DNA from: Rhynchonema sp. JSB1_4
Lineage: Eukaryota; Nematoda; Chromadorea; Monhysterida; Xyalidae
Assembly (NCBI GenBank): GCA_030248065.1
Contig: JASAMV010005756.1
Location: 1 to 64,000, forward strand
DNA length: 64,000 bases
Direction: 5' to 3'
Positions 3,023-63,940 of the stretch are shown here, piece after piece; positions within the stretch are counted from its first letter, which is position 1, and each line of letters opens with the position of its first letter. A program made the position numbers and the translations under genes. The notes beneath the pieces were generated by a model. It did no database searches. It saw nothing but the letters and a program-made list of their open reading frames with translations, and was not told the DNA's origin.

Positions 3023-3330
3023 TTCACTTTTATTAGTTAGACACTCAAATCTTCCGCCATACCCACAGTGACCTACTATTGGAAAAGGTCGTTCGTCTCC
3101 AAGCCGATAAAAACCCTCGGAGCTTGACTTGTCGCGACGTTGGTTTTGGTTTGTGATTCGTCCTATTGCATGTATTATTTATAAACCTATGTACCTAACC
3201 TAACCTGACTGGATTTCCAGCTAGATTTTCCAGATCAGGTACCGGGGAAGCTCGATATATTCGCAACGCCGGTTACTAATCCAGTCGACAAGCTTGATAG
3301 ATTCGCGCGTCGACTCATCGGTGTGGCTTG

Positions 3331-5298
3331 ATGAAATTCGCAGCACCGATGCATCCTTCAAGCGGCGAGCCTATTCGTCGCGAACCAATGCCGGACGTCA
3401 ATTCCCGGAAGAACAATCAGGTGCCGGACGTCAATTCCCGGTCGAATAAGGCAATGCCGGATGCCAGTCTCCGGAAGGGAACCGCCGATGACCGCAGTAG
3501 TCCGCCGAGGCAGAGAGAACAGACAGGCGGATGGATAGGTCAGTCGGGCGAGACAGTGAAAAACCCACCCATCGGTCGCGGAGGGACCGGATGGCTGATG
3601 TGGGATGAGGAGAGTGATGTTTCGTTCATCGAAAGTAGCACCTTTGGGTGTTTGGGACGAGACGAAGGTAAGTTTAAGGACCAGAAGTCGGGTGGAGAAG
3701 TCGGTCAGCGTGAGGACCGCAGTGTGAAAGTCGACCAGTGGAACGGTCGCAGTGTGAAAGTCGACCAGTGGAACGGTCGCAGTGTGAAAGTCGGTCAGTT
3801 GGAGGACCGCAGTTGTGGTCAATTGGACCAGTTGGACGGAGAGGTGTACCGACCGGACATGAAAGCTGGACAGGCGCAGGCAGCGCAGGAGTTCCATGCT
3901 GGGTACCGGCGGACGGAATTATTGACCGCTAGCCAGGCGCGGAGGGCGCAAGAGATCTATGATGAATGGCTGAGCGAGGCAAGGTTGCGCAAGGCGCAGG
4001 AGATCAGTGCGGAGAAAGGACCGGAGGTCCGCTTGGAGAGAGGACAAGGAGTCCGTGTGGAGGAAGGACAGGAATGTTTGGAAGAGGAAAGGGCGCGGAA
4101 GGCGCATGAGATTCGCGTGACAGAGGAGCAGGAGAGGAAAGGGCAGGAGCCTGAACGAGCGTCGAAAGGGCAGGAGACGGGAGGAGTGCTGCCAGTGCGT
4201 CGAGCCCGTTATGTGAGTTCGGATACGGAGACCGGACGTATGTGTGTTCGTGAGAGATATCAGTCCGAGTCTGAGGCGATCGGACAGAATGCGATTGATC
4301 TGTACACGCAAGAGGAGCTTGAGGAGGACCAGATACGTGAGGTATCGTGGCAAGAGGATTGGTTGGATGCACCCAAGTTCGCTGAACCTTGGCGGTTGCA
4401 TGAAGAAGTGGTTGACATCGTGCTCACCACGCATCGATACAGTGACCATCTGTTGAAATGGTTGTATGCAGAGGAGCTACCCCATGATCGATTGCTTGCT
4501 GCCAGGATTTCGGAGTATTTGAATGTGAACTCGCTGACGCAGGAGCCTTTGTGTGAGCTTGAAGACCGGTTTTCATCCGAGGCTCGCGGATTGTTTGAGA
4601 TTGAGCAAGCACGGTCACCGAGATCCGCCAAGACGCGTCAATTGCTTGACAAGTGGGGCGAGATGCTCGATAACCGAATGCCGATACGAGTGCTACCATA
4701 TGGAGACCGCCACAGTCCGGGCATGCCACTGCAAGAGGGTTCCGAACCCGTGACTTGTGGATTGTACAATAATATGTGTCGGAATGAGGACCCGATGTTG
4801 TCCATGCCGAACGTGCTTGAGAATGCGCTCAGAGAACGCACACGGTATTTCGACCTACCCGAACTGGACTACCCAGTGCAGTCGCACACCGTCAGTGTGT
4901 CGATACGTATAGTGCCAGTCGGAAAGACGCAAACCCTGTGGCATGGTGCCCCGGTTGAAGAGTGTATGAGCAGCCAACAGGATGAAGCAGGCTGTGGCAC
5001 GCCTGAAAGTGCTACTGGAGGTCCCAACCAAACTGAACATAAACGTGAGTACGACGTACTGTACGAACCGATCGTGAAGTATGTATACTTTGAACCGGAG
5101 GGAGAGTTGAGGATGGCTGACTACAATCTCCGATTGGGTCATTTCGAAGGGGATGTGAAACGCCCGTCGATAATGTCTATTCCGGTGGAACTCGTTCTGT
5201 CGTCTAGACCCGACGGAAGGATAGTAACAGCTGTTACGCGTGGTGGTTCTTTGAACACCGAACAGCACGGAACCCGCACCACTTATGCAGACCACTAA
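3331..5298 (+). CDS. Intronless ORF with repeat-rich N-terminus, function unknown
   Basis: This is by far the longest uninterrupted ORF here (about 655 residues from the ATG at 3331 to TAA). The first third is built of repeats: three copies of a PDVNSR-type unit (residues ~20-50), three of a GRSVKVDQWN-type ten-residue unit (~130-160) and then a charged Arg/Glu/Gln-rich stretch (~185-290) with recurring AQEI or GQE words, likely helical or coiled coil. The last ~350 residues are non-repetitive and look folded (HEEVVDIVLTTHRYSDHLLK, later YDVLYEPIVKYVYFEPEGEL). There is no signal peptide, membrane segment or zinc knuckle. Being intronless among intron-rich genes suggests a retrotransposon gag-like protein, a retrocopy or a lineage-specific gene. 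No reverse transcriptase follows and no second LTR was seen. Confidence 0.6.
   Translation: MKFAAPMHPSSGEPIRREPMPDVNSRKNNQVPDVNSRSNKAMPDASLRKGTADDRSSPPRQREQTGGWIGQSGETVKNPPIGRGGTGWLMWDEESDVSFIESSTFGCLGRDEGKFKDQKSGGEVGQREDRSVKVDQWNGRSVKVDQWNGRSVKVGQLEDRSCGQLDQLDGEVYRPDMKAGQAQAAQEFHAGYRRTELLTASQARRAQEIYDEWLSEARLRKAQEISAEKGPEVRLERGQGVRVEEGQECLEEERARKAHEIRVTEEQERKGQEPERASKGQETGGVLPVRRARYVSSDTETGRMCVRERYQSESEAIGQNAIDLYTQEELEEDQIREVSWQEDWLDAPKFAEPWRLHEEVVDIVLTTHRYSDHLLKWLYAEELPHDRLLAARISEYLNVNSLTQEPLCELEDRFSSEARGLFEIEQARSPRSAKTRQLLDKWGEMLDNRMPIRVLPYGDRHSPGMPLQEGSEPVTCGLYNNMCRNEDPMLSMPNVLENALRERTRYFDLPELDYPVQSHTVSVSIRIVPVGKTQTLWHGAPVEECMSSQQDEAGCGTPESATGGPNQTEHKREYDVLYEPIVKYVYFEPEGELRMADYNLRLGHFEGDVKRPSIMSIPVELVLSSRPDGRIVTAVTRGGSLNTEQHGTRTTYADH
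3718..3800 (+). repeat. 30-bp in-frame tandem repeat inside the long ORF
   Basis: The unit beginning cgcagtgtgaaagtcgacca occurs twice perfectly and a third time with a changed end. Its length is a multiple of three, so each copy adds ten residues (RSVKVDQWNG) without breaking the frame. This points to recent slippage or unequal exchange. Confidence 0.9.
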
Positions 5299-37123: not shown

Positions 37124-37450
37124 CAGTGTAGTTCCTGGTCCGGCGGGGAAATTAGTGTACCTCCCTACTTTTTCGGAGGGGAAATTAGTGTACCTCCCTG
37201 GGGGGAAGGGGGGAAGACCCAAAATCAGGAAAAAGTCACTTTTTGAGGTGGAAAAGTTGACCTACTTTTACCCCTTTTTGGAAAAAAATCTTCATAAACA
37301 GGGTATTTTGCCGACTTTTGAGTACATTGACCTAAAAATCACACATTTTAGGCCTAAAAATGCCCATGTTAGGCCTAAAAATGGCCATTTTAGGCAAAAA
37401 TTGGGGAAATTAGTGTACCCGGAGGGGAAATTAGTGTACTAGTGTACCTT
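37124..37450. mobile_element. hAT-like element, left end only, word GGGGAAATTAGTGTACC
   Basis: It starts cagtgtagttcctggtccgg, the end sequence of the intact element at 57037-57425. The private word ggggaaattagtgtacc occurs four to five times. The core (cctaaaaatcacacatttta, then ttaggcctaaaaatggccat) matches the cores at 57130-57290 and 58620-58800. The right end is lost where the next foldback begins. In unit 2 the corresponding position (about 52885) has no insertion. Confidence 0.65.
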
Positions 37451-37474
37451 GGTCGAAAAAATCAGTGTGCCTTA

Positions 37475-38184
37475 GGGCGCGGCCAGGTAGATGCGGACTG
37501 CGGACTGCGGACATTGAAAAAAAAACTATGTCCAATGTCCGCAGTCCGCAGTCCGCATCTACCTGGCCGCACTTGCGGACTGCGGACTGCGGACATTGAA
37601 AAAAAACTATGTCCAATGTCCGCAGTCCGCAGTCCGCATCTACCTGGCCGCACTTGCGGACTGCGGTTTGCGGACAATCGAAACATTTTTTGATTGTGTT
37701 TGCTAGTGCGATATACAACTACAGGGTTGTGAATATAGTGTAACGTGGATTCCTGCCCTGTTGCCTGCCATTCAATACCATGAAACATTCTAACGTGTGT
37801 GTCCTTATTCTGTGATTGCTGTGTGTGATACGTGGCAGTCGTCAGTTGCGCGTGTGTTGGCAATTGATTATTGTGAGTTGGCAGATATTACATGGATGTT
37901 TCAGGCAACAACAGAAGACAACACAGTATTATGCACGGTATTGAAGTTTGCATATTTACAACCCTGTAGTTATATGCTTACTAGCAAACACAATCAATGA
38001 AATGTTTCGATTGTCCGCTGTCCGCAGTCCGCAAGTGCGGCCAGGTAGATGCGGACTGCGGACTGCGGACATTGGACATAGTTTTTTTTCAATGTCCGCA
38101 GTCCGCAGTCCGCAAGTGCGGCCAGGTAGATGCGGACTGCGGACTGCGGACATTGGACATAGTTTTTTTTCAATGTCCGCCGTG
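37475..38184. repeat. Multi-hairpin foldback built from palindrome P
   Basis: Four hairpins of about 85 bases, each gcggccaggtagatgcggac with an inverse partner and a centre of poly(A) or poly(T) plus actatgtcc, stand two at each side. The inner parts also pair (gacaatcgaaacatttttt with aaatgtttcgattgtc, and caactacagggttgtgaat with its inverse near 37965). TTA precedes the left end; the right end is cut by the hAT fragment at 38187. Confidence 0.75.
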
Positions 38185-56000: not shown

Positions 56001-57036
56001 AATTACTGCTTGAAAGTCAACGAAAAAAAATGCAAGTACACTTCTCTGTTGCGCTGAATGCAAAAAAAACACAACATGTACACATGGGATGCAGATGCAC
56101 AACTCACACGTCGCACTCATATTGAATACTGCGCACAATGGGCCACAATGGTCTGCACTTTGTGGCATTTTGCTGTGGTCCCACCCCAACCTTACAGTAA
56201 CGCTACCGTAATCCCCGAAAGAGAAAAAGAAAAGCGAAATTGCAAGTTAGGTCGGCCTTACGTGAAATCAGGAGATAGAATTCACATAAACGGAATCAAA
56301 GGTGGGAATCGGGCCGGGTTCCGGCCCGACGAGGTCCTAGGGTCGGCCCGGCCCGGCCCGATTTTTTTCGGCCCGACTTTTTCTGATGATATTTTGAAGA
56401 AAATTTTTTGGTGCAAAAATTACAGTTTTTTGTTTAAAAATACCTGAAAATCATAGAAGTCGGTCCTAAGCTGCTGAATCGCAAGAAATTTTGGCTAATT
56501 TACCGTAAAAAGTCAGGAGTTTTTGTTGAAATTCGATGATGTCGGGCCTTTTCGGGCCGACCATCCCGGCCCGGCCCGGCCCGACATTCCGAAAAGCCGG
56601 CTCGGCCCGGACCGGCCCGACCAGAGATCGGAAACGGGCCGGGTAAAGTCGGCCCGGCCCGGCCCGGTCGGCGAAAAGTCCGGCCCGGTGGAGGGCTGCA
56701 GGTCGGCCCGGCCCGGCCCGTTTTGGCTTGAGGTCGGCCCGGCCCGGCCCGGTCAGCCAATTTTCAAGGGCTGAAAACTAAAAAAGTCCAAAAAAGCTGA
56801 AAAAAATTCGAAAATTTTCTGCAGAATACTTGTTTTCACTGGTTGGTACAGCTGGGGGGAAGGTAGGTAGGTAGATTGACGCGCCATCCTGATGCAGTAC
56901 GTAAGTCGCCGCCCCGGTTGGTACAGTAGTGTAGTAGGTATGGTATAATTTTTGGCTCAAAATGGTTTAAAATCGGTATTTTTCACTCCATATAGGCGAA
57001 AAATAGCGCGTGAAGCGCGAAATTAGCGCTTAAGAG

Positions 57037-57425
57037 CAGTGTAGTTCCTGGGGGGGAGGGGGGGCCCCCCTAAGGTACACTAACCGCCGCGACCAAGGTA
57101 CACTAGTACACTAACCGCCGCGCCAGGTACACTAACCGCCTCAATTTTTGCCTAAAATCGGCATTTTTAGGCCTAAAATGGGCATTTTTAGGCCTAAAAT
57201 GGGTGATTTTTAGGTCAATGATGTCAAAAGTCGCCAAAATACCCTTTTTATGGAGAATTTTTTCCAAAAAGGGGTAAAAATCGGTCAAATTTTCTACCTC
57301 AAAAAGTGACTTTTTCCTGGATTTGGGTCTTCCCCCCCCCTTCCCCCCCAGGGAGGTACACTAACCGCCGCACGAAAAAAAGGGGTAGGTACACTAACCG
57401 CCGCGCCGGACCAGGAACTACACTG
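57037..57425. mobile_element. Complete hAT-like MITE, word GTACACTAACCGCCGCG
   Basis: Ends cagtgtagttcctgg and ccaggaactacactg; perfect 8-bp duplication cttaagag (57029-57036 and 57426-57433). The private word gtacactaaccgccgcg occurs three times on the left and twice on the right. The core tttttaggcctaaaatgggc is shared with 37320-37400 and 58730-58800. Confidence 0.85.
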
Positions 57426-57515
57426 CTTAAGAGTACATTCTCATCAATATGTAGACATAAAATTTTGTTCCCGGACGACTCCCCCCAGCTCGGCCGGTCG
57501 GTACTACAGTAGGTA

Positions 57516-57926
57516 CCGTATTGTCGGAAATAGAACCCGGGGGGTCTATTTTTTCACTGGGGTCATTTTGGGGGGTTCAATTTATGGGGGGGGTCAATTA
57601 TTGGGGGGGTTATATTTTTCATTTGGCCCCCCGACGAAAAAAATCATTGTTAATAATGCCCATAAAAATGGCTTGTTTTCCGTATTTTCTGCCTTTAACA
57701 GCGTCGATTATGCTTAAAAAGCTGTATTCTGTTGTGTACGCAAGCTTAAACAACGTTTGACACAACAACACAGCCCTACCATACCACTAATCTGTGGTAC
57801 GGTGAAGGTTGGGGGTGGGGTTCTATTAATGGGGGGGGTTCTATTTTTGATTTCGAGCCATTTAGGGGGGGTTCAATTAATGGGGGGCGGGTCAATTAAT
57901 GGGGGGTTCTATTTCCGACAATACGG
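57516..57926. mobile_element. TA-target MITE, word GGGGGGTCAATTAAT
   Basis: Ends ccgtattgtcggaaatagaa and ttctatttccgacaatacgg are perfect inverses flanked by TA. The word ggggggtcaattaat (or ggggttctatt) occurs about four times at each end. The inside (57630-57790) is unique sequence with no ORF. Confidence 0.8.
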
Positions 57927-58594
57927 TAGGTTGATTGCAGGCAGGCTTTTTTGGTGGTACAGTAGGAGTAGGTTGATTGCTGCAAAGCAAAGGCCTGAGT
58001 ATGGGTAGCTACTGCTTCTTTCTTCAAAACGATGACTGAAAAGATCAAGAACTAGGAAATGTTATTGCGCGAAGCGCAAAAATTTTGAAAATTTTGGTTC
58101 AAAAAATGGTAATTTCGTTCAAATTTAGGCATACCGGGCCGGACCGGGCCGGGCTGCTCGGCCCGGCCCGGTCGACCAACTCCAAAATCGCGGCCCGGCC
58201 CGGGTACCGGGCCGGGCCGGGCCAGCCCGTTTCCGATCTCTGGGCCCGACCGTTCGGGCCGGAAACCTCGGCCCGGCCCGATTCTCCAAATCATACCTCT
58301 GACAAGCAATTTTGTACCTTTTTAAGGCAAAAATCGGCGTTTTTCGACCTTATTTTCCAAAAAATCGCGCGCGCCGCGCGCAAACCCACCCATAATACCT
58401 ATTTTTAGACGATTTTCGGCGAAAATTTGGAAAAAGCACTATTTTTGTATTCTGGGAACAATTTTTTCAGGTTCAGGTCAGTGAATTAATAGAAGCCCCC
58501 CCCCCCGGAATAGAGCCCCCCGTAATAGAGCCCCCCAAAATGGGGTCAGTGAGTTAATAGAGCCCCCTTCTATTTAGGTTTTTACGGTACCTCC

Positions 58595-58870
58595 CTGGGG
58601 GAACGGGGGGAAGACCCAGATCCAGGAAAAGTCACTTTTGGGGTAGAAAATTTGACCGATTTTTGCCCCTTTTTGGAAACAATTCTTCATAAAAATGGTA
58701 TATTGGCGACTTTTGACATCATTGACCTAAAAATCGTTCATTTTAGGCCTAAAAAGGCCCATTTTAGGCCTAAAAATGCAAACTTTAGGCAAAAATTGAG
58801 GTGGTTAGTGTACCTTATGGGGACCCCCCAGTGCACTGTAGTGGCTGGGGGGATGGGGGGATTCCCCCCC
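58595..58870. mobile_element. Truncated copy of the 57037 family core
   Basis: gggggaagacccagatccag, then cattttaggcctaaaaagg and gaggtggttagtgtacctta, matches 37190-37420 and the inverse of 57120-57330. A cagtgcactgtagtggctgg end lies at about 58829-58851. Confidence 0.55.
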
Positions 58871-59420
58871 CTAAGGGGTATCTATCTCGAGTCAACCCTT
58901 AGGGGGGGGATGGGGGGGAAGGGTATCTATCTCGAGCCGACCCCAAATGGTATCTCGAGTAAGTAGATTTATGGTTTTCAAAGGCAAAAATAGGTGTTTT
59001 TCGACCTCGGGACCCCCAAAAATCGCAGACACCCAAAAATGGTCATTTTAGGCCAATTTTCGGCAAAAATGTCAAAAAATACCCATTTTTAGGCCAATTT
59101 TGCAGTAAAATTGCATGCAAAAAACGGCCTTTTCTCGCCTTTTGACGGACCATAGGGGTATCTTGGGTAGCCTCTGGGGGGTATCTCGAGTAAGTCCGAA
59201 ACCTTCCCCCCCTACGGTATCTTGGGTCGATTGGCCTGCCACCAGTGTTGGAGGTGGGGGGGTTGGGGGGGGGGGTAGCCCCCCCCCAGTACAGTAGGTA
59301 TCCCCCCCTCGCCTGGTATAGTAGGTATCCCCCCCGATGTTTGGCATGGTACAGTAGGTATCCCCCCGATGTTCCCCCCGCTCCAGTAGGTATCCCCCCC
59401 CCCCCCGATTGTGCCCCAAA
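58870..59420. repeat. Word arrays GGTATCTATCTCGAGT and ACAGTAGGTATCCCCCC
   Basis: ggtatctatctcgagtc and related forms occur at 58876, 58921, 58945 and, as variants, at 59158-59225. acagtaggtatcccccc and related forms follow at 59290-59400 and once at 59650. Two element types are nested or abutting here; their cores contain cattttaggccaattttcgg. Confidence 0.6.
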
Positions 59421-60109
59421 AGTGCCAATTTTTGACCAAAATGGCCGAAATTAGTGCAAAATCAGTGTTTTTTACCTCAAATTACCCGAAATTCGCGCGC
59501 TACGCGCGCAAATACTACGTTTTCACACGATTCCACACATAATAAACACATAAAAAATTTTCACCCCAAAACCTAACCCCCCCCCCAACCCCCCCCCCAA
59601 ACCCCCCCCCCCTAGGTACATAACCCCCCCCCAGGCCATCGGCTCTGGTACAGTAGGTATCCCCCCTCCAGAGTACCTCCAACACTGCCTGCCACCACAC
59701 TGCCCCAGTGTAGTACTTGGTCAGGGTGTTGACCATAGTAGTGGCTGGGGGGGGGTCTCAGTACTTACCTACCACAAACCCGAGGGGGGGTTGGGGGGAG
59801 GGGTTGAGTACTTACCTCTCACAACTCCAAATCATACCTCTCACAAGCAATTTTATACCTTTTTAAGGCAAAAATCGGTGTTTTTCGACCTTATTTTCCC
59901 AAAAAACGCCCACCCATAATACCTATTTTTAGGCGATTTTCGGCGAAAATTTTGAAAAAGTACTATTTTTACCTCAATTTTTGGCCAAAATTGTATCACA
60001 AAAACGGTGTTTTTTCGCCTTTTTGGATGACCAAAATCATACCTCTCACGCTTCCGGTCCCAACCCCGCATCATACTTACCTCCCACACATGGGCCTGCC
60101 ACTACACTG

Positions 60110-61410
60110 GTGTTGACGATAGATAGATTGGGACCGGAAATGTGTTGACGATAGATAGATGACCCAAGTCCGAAATCTGGGGGGGGGTCGACCCAAACTT
60201 GTTGACGATAGATAGTGCATTAAGAAGGTAATAATGTGTAAATATTAATGGAAATGTATATAGATGTACTACGCAATTTTTTGCCTATTTGGGGCAAAAA
60301 ATACCGATTTTGAGCCATTTTGAGTCAAAAATGTCCATTTTGGGGTCGATTGTTGTTGACGATAGATAGATTGTTCCCAGAATTTGTTGACGATAGATAG
60401 ATTTGCCCATATGTGTTGACGATAGATAGATGAAATCAAAAAGTGTTGACGATAGATAGATGAATTTGGGGGGGGACCCTCCACCCCCCCCCCCCCCAAG
60501 TACTACCCTGGGACCCCCTCCCCCCAGGAACTACACTATTTTTACCTCATATTTTGGCCAAAATTGTATCGCAAAAACGGTGTTTTTTCGCCTTTTTGGG
60601 TGACCAAAATCATACCTCTCACGCGTCCGGTCCGGTCCCAACCCCGCATCACAGTGTAGTACTTGGTCAGGGTGTTGACGATAGATAGATTGGGACCCGA
60701 AATGTGTTGACGATAGATAGATGACCCAAGTCCGAAATCTGGGGGGTCGACCCAAACTTGTTGACGATAGATAGATGGTGGGGGGGATCGCCAAAAATCA
60801 AGGTATAGTGCACTTAAATGTACTAAATCCGCGCGCAGCGCGCAATTTTTTGCCTATTTGGGGCAAAAAATACCGATTTTGAGCCATTTTGAGTCAAAAA
60901 TGTCAATTTTGGGTTCGAAATGTGTTGACGATAGATAGATTTATACTTGCGGGCCGGACAAAAACCGTTTTTTTCCGAAAAAAAAAACCGAAAAAAACTT
61001 TTTATTTTTCCGGAAATTTTTCCAAGTGGCAAGTGGCAAAAATTTGCGAGATATTTTCCAAGGTTGCGAGAGGATGTTGTCAAAACCAATGTAAATCGGT
61101 ACAAAACAGTTCAAAACGAGCACTTTTTAATCTCCAGGTGCATTTTTAGACTGTTTCAGGCCATTTCCCGGCGAAATTTTCTCCAAAATAGGCGTTTTTG
61201 GACCATGGGTATCCTTAAGTACTGAAAAAATATTTGGAAAAAACCGGTTTTTTTCCGAAAAAAACTGTTTTTTTTTCCAAAAATATATTTTGCGGAAAAA
61301 TACGCAAGTATAGATATATTGTTACCAGAATTTGTTGACGATAGATAGATTTGCCCATAAGTGTTGACGATAGATAGATGAAATCAAAAAGTGTTGACGA
61401 TAGATAGATG
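60110..61410. repeat. Word array GTTGACGATAGATAGAT
   Basis: The word gttgacgatagatagat occurs about eleven times: several around 60112-60215, four at 60354-60475, three at 60675-60775, one at 60921 and three at 61333-61408. Blocks repeat (60112-60215 and 60680-60775; 60370-60470 and 61330-61410), so at least two copies of the same element are nested or partly duplicated. The core has cgcgcgcagcgcgc at about 60832. Confidence 0.65.
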
Positions 61411-62468
61411 AATTTGGGGGACCCCCCCCCCAAGTACTACCCTGCCGCATCATACTTACCTCCCACACATGGGCCTGCCACCAGTGCTGTGGCTGGGGAG
61501 GGGGTCCAAGGTCCAATGGTACCCTACCCGCCCCGCCCTGGTACCCTACCCGCCCCGATTTTTGCGCTCAAAATGCCCATTTTCGGTCAAATATGACCTA
61601 ATTTTGACCGAAAACCATTAAAAGTGCAAAAAATCGCGCGCTGCGCGCGATATATGCACTTCATAGCATATAAAAATAGGCACCCAAAAAAACCTGTATT
61701 GTACCCTACCCGCCCCGAAAAATCTTCCCCCCTCCCCCCAAACCGGATTCCCCCCCCCCCAAGATCCCAGGTTCCAGGTACACTACCCCCTACCCGCCCC
61801 GGATTTTTCCACCCAGTGCTGTGGCTGGGGGGGGGGGGGTGGGGGGTCCCCCCAATGGTGCCCTACCCGCCCCGGCCTAGTACGCTACCCCCTACCCGCC
61901 CCGCTCTTGTACCCTACCCCTCTACCCGCCCCGCCCTGGTACCCTACCCGCCCCGATTTTTAATCCCAAAATGCCCATTTTTCGGTCAAAAATGCCCAAA
62001 TTTCGACCGAAAACCCTAAAAAGTGCAAAAAATCTCGCGCTGCGCGCGATATATGCACTTTTTAGTACATAAAAACAGGCCCCCGGCCGAAAAAACTTGT
62101 GTTGTACCCTGCCCGCCCCGAAAAATCTTCACCCCCTCCTATAATTGCGTATTTTTCCGAAAAATATATTTTTGTAAAAAAAACCTTTTTTTTTCCGTAA
62201 AAAAAACCGTTTTTTTTCCAAATATTTTTCCAGTACTTAAGGATACCCATGGTCCAAAAACGCCTATTTTGGAGAAAATTTTGTCGGGAAGTGGCCTGAA
62301 ACATGCTAAAAATGCACTTGGAGATTAAAAAGTGCTCATTTTGAACTGTTTAGCACCGTTTTACATTAGTTTTGACAACATCCTTTCGTAACCCTTGAAA
62401 ATATTTCAACGGTTTTTTTTCGGTTTTTTTCCGGAAAAAAACGGTTTTTTTTCCGGCCCGGAAGTATA
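60945..62468. mobile_element. Foldback element, word ACCGGTTTTTTTCCG
   Basis: Left end tacttgcgggccggacaaaa and right end ttccggcccggaagta are inverted, and so are ggcgtttttggaccatgggt (61191) with its partner at 62246-62265. Runs of T or A broken by ccg form its private word. The region 61320-62140 inside holds the next element type. Confidence 0.6.
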
Positions 62469-62590
62469 CCCCCTCCCCTCCCCCCAAACCGGATTTCCTC
62501 CCCCCCCCCCAAAATCCCAGGTACACTACCCCCCTAACCGCCCCGATTTTTTACACCTATGTACCCTACCCCCCCCACAAAAGTAGCCAC
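61515..62590. repeat. Word array GGTACCCTACCCGCCCCG
   Basis: taccctacccgccccg occurs at 61520, 61540, 61700, 61786, 61861, 61885, 61910, 61941, 62104 (as taccctgcccgccccg) and variants up to 62575. Cores at 61555-61680 and 61955-62085 are near-duplicates, each with a gcgcgctgcgcgcg palindrome before atatatgcactt. Confidence 0.65.
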
Positions 62591-62964
62591 AGCACAGTTT
62601 CCACCTAAGTACCCTAAAAACCAAAAAAAAAGGGGGCTCTATTAACTAACAGACCCCATTTTGGGGCTCTATTACGGGGGGGCTCTGTTCCGGGGGGCCT
62701 CTATTAATTCACTGACCCGAACCTGAAAAAATTGTTCTCAGAAATAACCCCAAAAAACCCTAACAAGGGGTCTGAAAGGATGTTTTTTCGCTTGTAATCG
62801 CATTTATTCGTGTCTATTCGTCAATAAGAGGCGTATTATGTGCTCTGGAACGAACAACAAACGTGCATAAATGTACCTGTACACCACTATCAAGCCTTAA
62901 TACACTACAGTATATGGGATGTTGCTTAGGGGGGGAGCTCTATTCCGGGGCAATGGTGTGGCAG

Positions 62965-63940
62965 GGGGTGGGGGTAGGGTTAGAGGTCGCGGGGGGGGGG
63001 TACCCGACACCCGACAGCCGACACCCGACATCTGGAAGTACCCGACACCCGACATCTGAGAAAAAAAGCCGACACCCGACAGTTGCAAAAAAACCCGACA
63101 CCCGACATCTAGTTTTTGAAAAAAACCGACACCCGACACCTGTTTTTGGACCAAAAACAGGCAAATTTTTGTTCATTTGCATCATTAGTGCAATTTTTTG
63201 GCTCAAGTTACTGAATTCAAGTATTTTCACACGAAATAAACACCAAAATGTGACATTCTGCGTCTTCGGAAACATTTGGTTCGAAGAAAATTTTCTCCCA
63301 AAATTCTTCTCTCAGCAAAACTGATGTTTTGAACCGTAAGTGTCGGGTGTCGGCTGTCGGATGTCGGGTCCTAAAAAACCCGACACCCGACATCTGGAGG
63401 TACCCGACACCCGACACCTACACTTTTTTGGCACCCGACACCCGACATCTCTCTAACCCTAGTGGGGGGTCCCCCCAAGGTACAGTAGGTACGTAGGTTG
63501 ACGCTCCATCCTGGTACAGTAGGTAGGTCGCCGCCCGGCGGGGGTACCCGACACCCGACATCTGAGAAAAAAGCCGACACCCGACAGTTGCAAAAAAACC
63601 GACATCCGACATCTAGTTTTTGGAAAAAAACCGACACCCGACACCTGTTTTTGGACCAAAAAACAGGCAAGTTTTTGCTCATTTGCATCATTAGTGCAAT
63701 TTTTTGGCTCAAGCTACTGAATTCAAGTATTTTCACACGAAATGAACACCAAAATGTCACATTCTGCGTCTTCGGAAACATTTGGTTCGAAGAAAATTTT
63801 CTCTAAAAAATTCTTATCTCAGCAAAACTGATGTTTTGAACCGTGAGTGTCGGGTGTCGGGTCCCAAAAAACCGACATCTGGGGGTACCCGACACCCGAC
63901 ACCTACACTTTTTTGGCACCCGACATCTCTCTAACCCTAT
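62965..63940. repeat. Two tandem copies of an element with word CCGACACCCGACATC
   Basis: Copy one (about 62965-63455) and copy two (about 63540-63940) run in the same direction with high similarity. Each has three or four direct cccgacacccgacatc words on the left and several direct and inverted ones on the right, plus a shared core (catttgcatcattagtgcaa, cgtcttcggaaacatttgg). Copy one is bounded by tagggttagagg on the left and ctctctaaccctag on the right. Confidence 0.7.

Follow-up and report, generated by a model that had tools for sequence, protein, structure and literature searches.

CACTA/EnSpm transposons bear, towards either end, many copies of a word 10-20 bp long that is specific to the family, together with CACTA termini and 3-bp target site duplications (TSDs). 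In the hAT superfamily, the transposase of Herves has been shown to bind a repeated subterminal motif (PMC3143072), and Herves, Ac, Tol2 and Tag1 have 8-bp TSDs, short terminal inverted repeats (TIRs) and several copies of a short motif near both ends. The present study deals with transposable elements (TEs) of this plan in a stretch of 64,000 nucleotides, referred to as the window, which spans positions 1 to 64,000 (forward strand) of contig JASAMV010005756.1 of the nematode Rhynchonema sp. JSB1_4 (GenBank assembly GCA_030248065.1), and chiefly in its portion 56308-63940. These elements share the 8-bp TSD, the short TIR and the repeated motif with the hAT relatives, from which they differ in that the word is longer (16-20 bp), runs in one direction in both arms and is specific to a lineage on a shared TIR, core and set of positions; neither the TSD length nor the ends of CACTA/EnSpm elements are matched by them.

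Related TEs whose motifs turn over jointly and rapidly, alongside a protein of changing specificity, have been described in Arabidopsis in the form of VANDAL elements and their VANC proteins (Mutator superfamily; PMC5735166, PMC10398659). VANDAL motifs are short, lie in one orientation and occupy non-coding parts, as do the words in 66 of 68 elements of the present set, whose one-way arrangement in both arms recalls the VANC21 motifs (PMC5735166). VANDAL elements are, however, long and coding, whereas those studied here measure about 400 bp and have hAT ends and 8-bp TSDs, and are not of the Mutator type with a VANC gene (DUF1985/DUF287); moreover, VANDAL motifs change by tandem repeat formation, whereas the two families examined most closely here, A and B, keep dispersed sites at fixed, homologous places on either side of a core that is conserved. 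The piggyBac-like CMITEs of corals resemble the present elements in having an internal region that is more conserved between families than the termini, but their TIRs differ (PMC2872659), whereas the present elements keep their TIR and vary in the subterminal word. Turnover of motif repeats as such thus has a precedent in VANDAL/VANC, whereas the preliminary description of this DNA knew of no named family with such a degree of word turnover; concerted replacement of words at fixed, dispersed hAT sites was without a report in the open-licence PMC literature searched, subscription journals being outside its scope.

The source assembly comprises 204 Mb in 5747 contigs, and loci taken from it for comparison bear L-numbers (e.g. 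L070, L092). Positions 1-37 kb of the window were covered by scans for repeats, open reading frames and TIRs.

Results

Four words on one scaffold in family A

The family A element at 57037-57425 (+ strand, 389 bp) has the TIR CAGTGTAGTTCCTGG at both ends and the TSD CTTAAGAG, and carries the word W1 (GGTACACTAACCGCCGCG) at five sites, all on the + strand (57074, 57106, 57126, 57355 and 57388, the second found by eye). Its core (TTTTTGCCTAAAA...TTAGGCCTAAAA..., 57143-57324, +) served as query for other copies. From 100 listed among the 4435 genomic matches of CAGTGTAGTTCCTGGGG, about every fifth was taken, giving 20 loci (one shifted because of a contig end); L072 was without a family A core, L057 was disrupted, and L071 entered the word count and lay outside the core alignment of 29 sequences. 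Copies met elsewhere brought the core matches to 32, of which 30 were scored, the partial L004:1960 (W1 arms) and L096 (W4 arms) being left out.

Four words were found among the scored copies, namely W1 in 10, W2 (GGTACACTATCTCCCCCTC) in six, W3 (GGTACACTAATTTCCCC) in four and W4 (GGTACGTCTGTTCCCCCTCC) in 10. All 123 word sites in these 30 copies match the copy's own word with at most one mismatch (37 sites in W1, 26 in W2, 18 in W3 and 42 in W4 copies) and foreign words are absent; one copy, broken and of W1 type (window position 58620), has no matching site. The lineages share five word positions, as read from the left arms of 24 and the right arms of 19 copies: the first follows a poly-C tract, the second is half-duplicated, the third and fourth flank the core, and the last precedes CCGGACCAGGAACTACACTG. 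The half-duplicated site, site B, occurs in all four word lineages, and the arms are therefore homologous.

Beyond the sampled copies, right ends of the form CTA-9N-CCGGACCAGGAACTACACTG, a pattern that leaves W4 outside, number 2803 in the genome, and each of the first 100 listed is at most one mismatch away from W1 (50), W2 (37) or W3 (13), words that are 4-5 letters apart from one another; 47, 33 and nine of these, respectively, are exact, and the 11 with one mismatch comprise three W1, four W2 and four W3. Replacement is concerted: sites within a copy differ at 0.49 of 7 letters and the same site between lineages at 3.8 of 7, in a set of 13 copies with all five sites parsed (seven W1, four W2 and two W3; two W3 and six W4 failed the parsing rule) in which W2 site B was parsed as a partial unit, raising the within-copy figure. 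Between W1 and W3 the differences fall at the same four positions in all five sites, for which the chance would be 9e-14 if four of 16 letters changed independently, a value given as a yardstick and not as a model. The words are bipartite, with a first half kept from W1 to W3 (GGTACACTA joined to ACCGCCGCG, TCTCCCCCTC and ATTTCCCCG), followed by GGTACGTCTG joined to TTCCCCCTCC, and with a second half common to W2 and W4.

These data support the proposal of the preliminary description that an element's words are kept uniform while different lineages, on a common TIR and core, have had theirs replaced. Its statement that words are unrelated from type to type is too strong, a half-word often being kept within a family (GGTACACTA plus a variable half); its examples were mixed, GTTGACGATAG, CCGACACCCGACA and CGGCCCGGCC coming from different TIR families and the other words from one. 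The element it had noted at 37.1 kb belongs to family A with another word: this W3 (GGTACACTAATTTCCCC) copy (37124-37475, - strand) has a core 91% identical to that of the W1 copy and retains four matching sites, its left end being lost to a TGCGGAC-repeat element. The truncating element, at 37476-38180, carries TGCGGACTGCGGACTGCGGACA repeats in a fold-back arrangement.

Words against cores and arms

Core consensus sequences of lineages with different words differ at 10/185 (W1-W2), 8/184 (W2-W3) and 14/184 (W1-W3) positions, and W1 cores differ among themselves by 6.4% on average, whereas the cores of W4a and W4b, whose word is identical, are 37/185 (20%) apart. Word exchange is uncoupled from core divergence, a gap of about 5% accompanying a new word and one of 20% the same word. 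In the core tree, W4 forms one clade (0.988) and W3 is split, one copy standing beside a W1 copy and three among W2, so that word identity follows core phylogeny, a relationship the preliminary description had wished to see examined, only in part. Distances of copies from their lineage consensus average 0.062 for W3 (n = 4), 0.038 for W1 (n = 9), 0.025 for W4a (n = 6), 0.021 for W2 (n = 6) and 0.005 for W4b (n = 3), in keeping with successive waves bearing different words.

The arms of W1 and W3, compared by eye, differ at 20/80 word letters and 7/71 other letters (p 0.019), six of the seven non-word differences falling within the spacer that separates the last two sites and one elsewhere. One further copy, L070, combines W4 arms with a mosaic core, its left part like W1/W3 and its right part like W4b, and indicates that cores recombine.

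Family B

Family B has the TIR CAGTGTAGTGGCTGG and three words, W7, W8 and W9, at aligned positions; W9 (GGTACCTTGCAACCA) occurs in L088, L089 and L091 and in part in L087, L090 and L092. Every one of 33 sites in eight of 10 core matches carries the copy's own word, a count that leaves out L018:50, window position 58311 and the mosaic L092. Ends of the form TA-14N-GCCTGCCACTACACTG number 1825 in the genome; the first 100 listed include 53 W9 (50 exact) and 46 W8 (37 exact), 99 thus lying within one mismatch, and the remaining one is five letters from W8 and W7-like. The W7 core is 19-21% apart from three full W9 copies, and three longer W8 copies are 33-36% apart from the same W9 copies.

Assignment to the hAT superfamily and orientation of the words

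Elements of the hAT superfamily have short TIRs starting CA/TA(G)nnG, and their target consensus is nTnnnnAn. The genome is crowded with nested, non-coding elements of hAT type that have inverted CAG/TAG ends and 8-bp duplications. A first scan, which looked for inverted CAG-type ends flanked by an 8-bp duplication, recovered six elements in the window, four of them within 56308-63940, and inspection by eye added 58834-59702, 59734-60109 and 59706-60510 with their duplications, that of the last being GGACCCCC. Flanks matched at 8/8 positions in 15 of 19 TIR pairs and in none of the 19 at each of three shifts (8, 16 and 24), a count from which copies in overlapping loci were not taken out. All loci combined yielded 64 distinct elements with perfect 8-bp duplications, the property for which the list was selected, and these favour nTnnnnAn, with T at position 2 in 42/64 and A at position 7 in 38/64 (80/128 positions jointly, p 4e-17). 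Their TIRs start CAGTG..., CAGGG... or TAGGG..., ends of the kind that the scan itself looked for. By TSD length, target preference and short TIRs with these starts, the elements are placed in the hAT superfamily as non-autonomous members; they resemble miniature inverted-repeat transposable elements, being about 380-450 bp long and non-coding.

Word arrays are present at 56308-63940, as had been reported, and far exceed chance: seven exact strings occur there in 3-15 copies each, counted over both strands (CCGACACCCGACA 15, GTTGACGATAGATAG 14, CGGCCCGGCC 14, TACCCGCCCCG eight, TAGGTATCCCCC five, GGTACACTAACCGCC four and ATACCTCTCAC three), against 0.00-0.04 expected from 50 base shuffles, a mononucleotide control and hence a mild one. 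The W3 word, the eighth string tested, has no copy at 56308-63940. The partial sharing of cores is likewise confirmed for ttaggcctaaaa. The words had also been described as inverted between the ends, which proved wrong, for only the TIRs are inverted and the words run as direct repeats through both arms in 66 of 68 scored elements. The two inverted cases are the composite 56622-58242 and an element whose word is poly-A-like; words of that kind also occur in two of the direct elements, which count little, so that 64 solid cases are left. All scored elements of four groups are direct, namely 14 CAGTGTAGTTCC, 29 CAGTGTTCGAAC, seven TAGGGATCGGCG and four CAGTGCTGTGGC elements.

Search for transposases

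The whole genome was searched with the Pfam profiles PF05699, PF02892, PF14372, PF14291 and PF04937, and with the protein of one DUF659 reading frame. PF05699 gave 330 candidate places, of which 150 were scored. A hAT C-terminal domain was inspected at 42 places, drawn from 30 loci, from 18 longer regions, of which 17 surround the places already covered and one is new with two hits, and from 10 additional loci. Of these places, 36 fall in two other TIR families, abundant and 0.8-1.9 kb long, with the TIR CAGTGTTCGAACGG and GATCCC words in one and the TIR TAGGGATCGGCGTC and CCGACA words in the other; six had no TIR pair in the stretch examined (L010, L016/L044, L023, L026, L030/L046 and L082), although GATCCC words survive in L016, which resembles a broken member of the CAGTGTTCGAACGG family. 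The zf-BED profile matched at 33 places in the genome, one of which (C3828) lies beside a hAT C-terminal domain in one of these two families. DUF659 had a single match, whose protein in turn had two more. PF14372 and PF14291 had no genome matches, and controls for both profiles were likewise silent. L096 holds a broken hAT-like gene and shows no word array of its own in 3.2 kb.

The CAGTGTTCGAACGG and TAGGGATCGGCGTC families (L009-L038, L039-L056 and L077-L086) keep a C-terminal dimerisation piece of a transposase. Their word units vary in number by copy, with blocks of two in L027 and four in L009, unlike the fixed sites of families A and B; this holds for the CAGTGTTCGAACGG family itself. 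At L056:6248-8620, two CAGTGTTCGAACGG elements adjoin, with the 8-bp flanks GTTCTGAT/CTTCTGAT, which looks like an insertion beside an insertion, and in L044 a repeated unit, partly at a spacing of about 319 bp (TTGCGTCCAA and neighbours, 14 places), flanks the hAT C-terminal domain.

Organisation of the nested stretch

Elements of the stretch from 56.3 to 64.0 kb, all on the + strand unless stated, lie largely within one another. The W1 element (57037-57425) sits within the CGGCCCGG element at 56622-58242, which has the word CGGCCCGGCC, the TIR CAGAGATCGGAAACG and the TSD GGCCCGAC and is itself inserted in sequence of the same word. A second nest centres on the GTTGACGATAG element at 59706-60510 (word GTTGACGATAGATAGAT, TIR CAGTGTAGTACTTGG, recognised by eye), whose TSD GGACCCCC is found at 58821-58828, ahead of the later W7 insertion, and at 60511-60518. 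Its left TIR received the family B element of word W7 (GGTATCTATCTCGAGTC) at 58834-59702 (TIR CACTGTAGTGGCTGGGG / CAGTGTGGTGGCAGG, TSD CCCCAGTG), which is interrupted in turn by an element at 59243-59687 with the word GTACAGTAGGTATCCCCC, the TIR CAGTGTTGGAGGT and the TSD CCTGCCAC. Judged by eye, the same GTTGACGATAG element also contains the family B element of word W8 (TACTTACCTCTCACA / ATCATACCTCTCAC; 59734-60109, TSD GTGTTGAC) and interrupts an older family A copy. That broken copy (58620-58828, - strand), split by later insertions, has a core identity of 92% and a single degenerate W1-like site (by eye), none being within one mismatch; its other end seems to lie at about 60514-60543 (by eye).

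Further to the right lie a second element of the GTTGACGATAGATAG word (60652-61444, TSD CCGCATCA) and, at 61482-62595, one or two elements of word GGTACCCTACCCGCCCCG with the TIR CAGTGCTGTGGCTGGGG and starts at 61482 and 61814, for which the right end is approximate and the nesting order ambiguous; relatives of the latter carry TSDs at L014, L018 and L041. The element TAGGGTTAGAG...CTCTAACCCTA at 62975-63461, of word CCGACACCCGACA, has flanks GGTGGGGG/GTGGGGGG that duplicate inexactly, a relative at L042 having an exact TSD; a second copy of it follows at 63540-63939, its start approximate and no left end recognised.

Another repeat family, with GGGGGTCAATTAATGGGGG / AATAGAGCCCCCC words round its cores, is nested among the hAT elements at about 57536-57920, 58480-58590 and 62630-62950. 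A CGCGC(G)-x-x-(C)GCGCG palindrome lies in mid-core in several families with different words (about 58366, 59497, 60829, 61634 and 62037, and in L088 and L093; by eye). Elsewhere in the window, positions 3301-5298 hold a long open frame of 665 amino acids with internal tandem repeats.

Discussion

hAT transposases bind repeated subterminal motifs, and in the simplest reading each word here is likewise the putative site of a protein. On balance we hold it probable that the subterminal words of 16-20 bp in these non-autonomous hAT elements are bound by a sequence-specific protein that acts in trans, a new word gaining ground whenever this protein changes. The reader of the word would most likely be whichever transposase is active at the time, or possibly an accessory protein. 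A copy would amplify only if each of its sites fitted the current protein, leaving one word per lineage; once the protein or its source changed, elements with a new word at all sites could expand as a new wave. A new word would then be spread by selection rather than by conversion, and the exchange of half a word would fit a binding domain of two parts. Lineages also recombine, which helps to bring arms and cores together in new combinations.

Several observations weigh against this proposal. The direct orientation of the words at both ends is not predicted by a symmetric pairing of the ends. When one word is counted once, its excess of change over the core is weak (p 0.017 for W1-W2, 0.042 for W1-W3 and 0.047 for W2-W3); it is strong when five sites are counted (2e-5 to 5e-4), the sites of an element being non-independent, and the test used one idealised 16-letter word per lineage, from which W1 site C, W2 sites A and E and W4 site C depart. 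The arms of W1 and W2 differ in several spacers as well, for which recombination also accounts. Family B cores differ by 19-40% between words, so that word change there is not clearly faster than core change, and the mosaic L092:13-345, with family B TIRs, W9 words on the left and W7 words in reverse on the right, is a recombinant between word lineages. Some figures rest on four W3 and three W4b copies, the samples being small and many copies having been picked by their exact TIR. Neither a full transposase nor any other protein that might bind the words of families A and B was recovered by the genome-wide profile and protein searches. The two families that keep a hAT C-terminal domain each had a single word in the loci examined and hence offered no transposase-word pair to compare, so that the link to separate transposases made in the preliminary description stays conjectural.

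The arms might instead be old, separate families among which recombination, or gap repair that was interrupted, distributed the cores; word replacement would then be an effect of core homogenisation. In its favour stand the W4 arms and mosaic core of L070, the shared arms of W4a and W4b on cores 20% apart, the W9 left and W7 right parts united in L092, and the spacers that separate W1 from W2 arms. L070 and L092 together make arm-core recombination real, and it may account for the passage between W1 and W2, but not readily for that between W1 and W3, whose arms are alike outside the words save for one letter and one spacer; as the half-duplicated site B also makes the arms of all four lineages homologous, we regard this account as possible, though somewhat unlikely. 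In another explanation, the words are targets of an element-encoded or host chromatin protein, comparable to VANC, and turn over by escape from silencing or repression. Lineages of different age do bear different words, as this would have it, but the elements are non-coding and only some 400 bp long, no such gene was seen, although no search was aimed at one, and the arrays adjoin the TIRs at both ends in the manner of hAT transposase sites, which leaves the explanation unlikely.

Neutral molecular drive would dispense with a reader altogether, a mutated word being spread by template switching or conversion among direct repeats during post-excision repair. The direct orientation would let arms exchange without inversion of the core, and the partial duplication of site B is kept in every lineage; against this, the W4a/W4b word was kept over a core change of 20%, which argues for constraint, the sites of 30 copies hold no foreign word, and the spread would need to halt at word edges. 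We consider such drive improbable. It is scarcely credible that the stretch is a pile of unrelated repeats with a common plan by chance, the outcome that the preliminary description would have drawn from different words coming only with unrelated cores: CGGCCCGGCC, CCGACACCCGACA and GTTGACGATAG do have other TIRs, but families A and B each combine one TIR and an alignable core with different words, which already refutes it for both.

The proposal of a trans-supplied protein leads to a more tentative one, which we put forward as a conjecture rather open to doubt: the changes may be successive 'key changes', in which one scaffold is refitted to a new DNA-binding protein by half-word steps taken at all sites together, related elements becoming mutually private parasites of different transposases, and in which the one-way words point to a polar, non-symmetric complex.

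The elements bear on how a TE protein can shift its DNA specificity when each of its many sites has to follow. With thousands of copies and few discrete words, a single genome should suffice to work out the order of the changes, their intermediates and the partner proteins, and the word swaps that nature provides can serve directly as substrates for tests. The system also bears on how non-autonomous elements may escape from competition or silencing.

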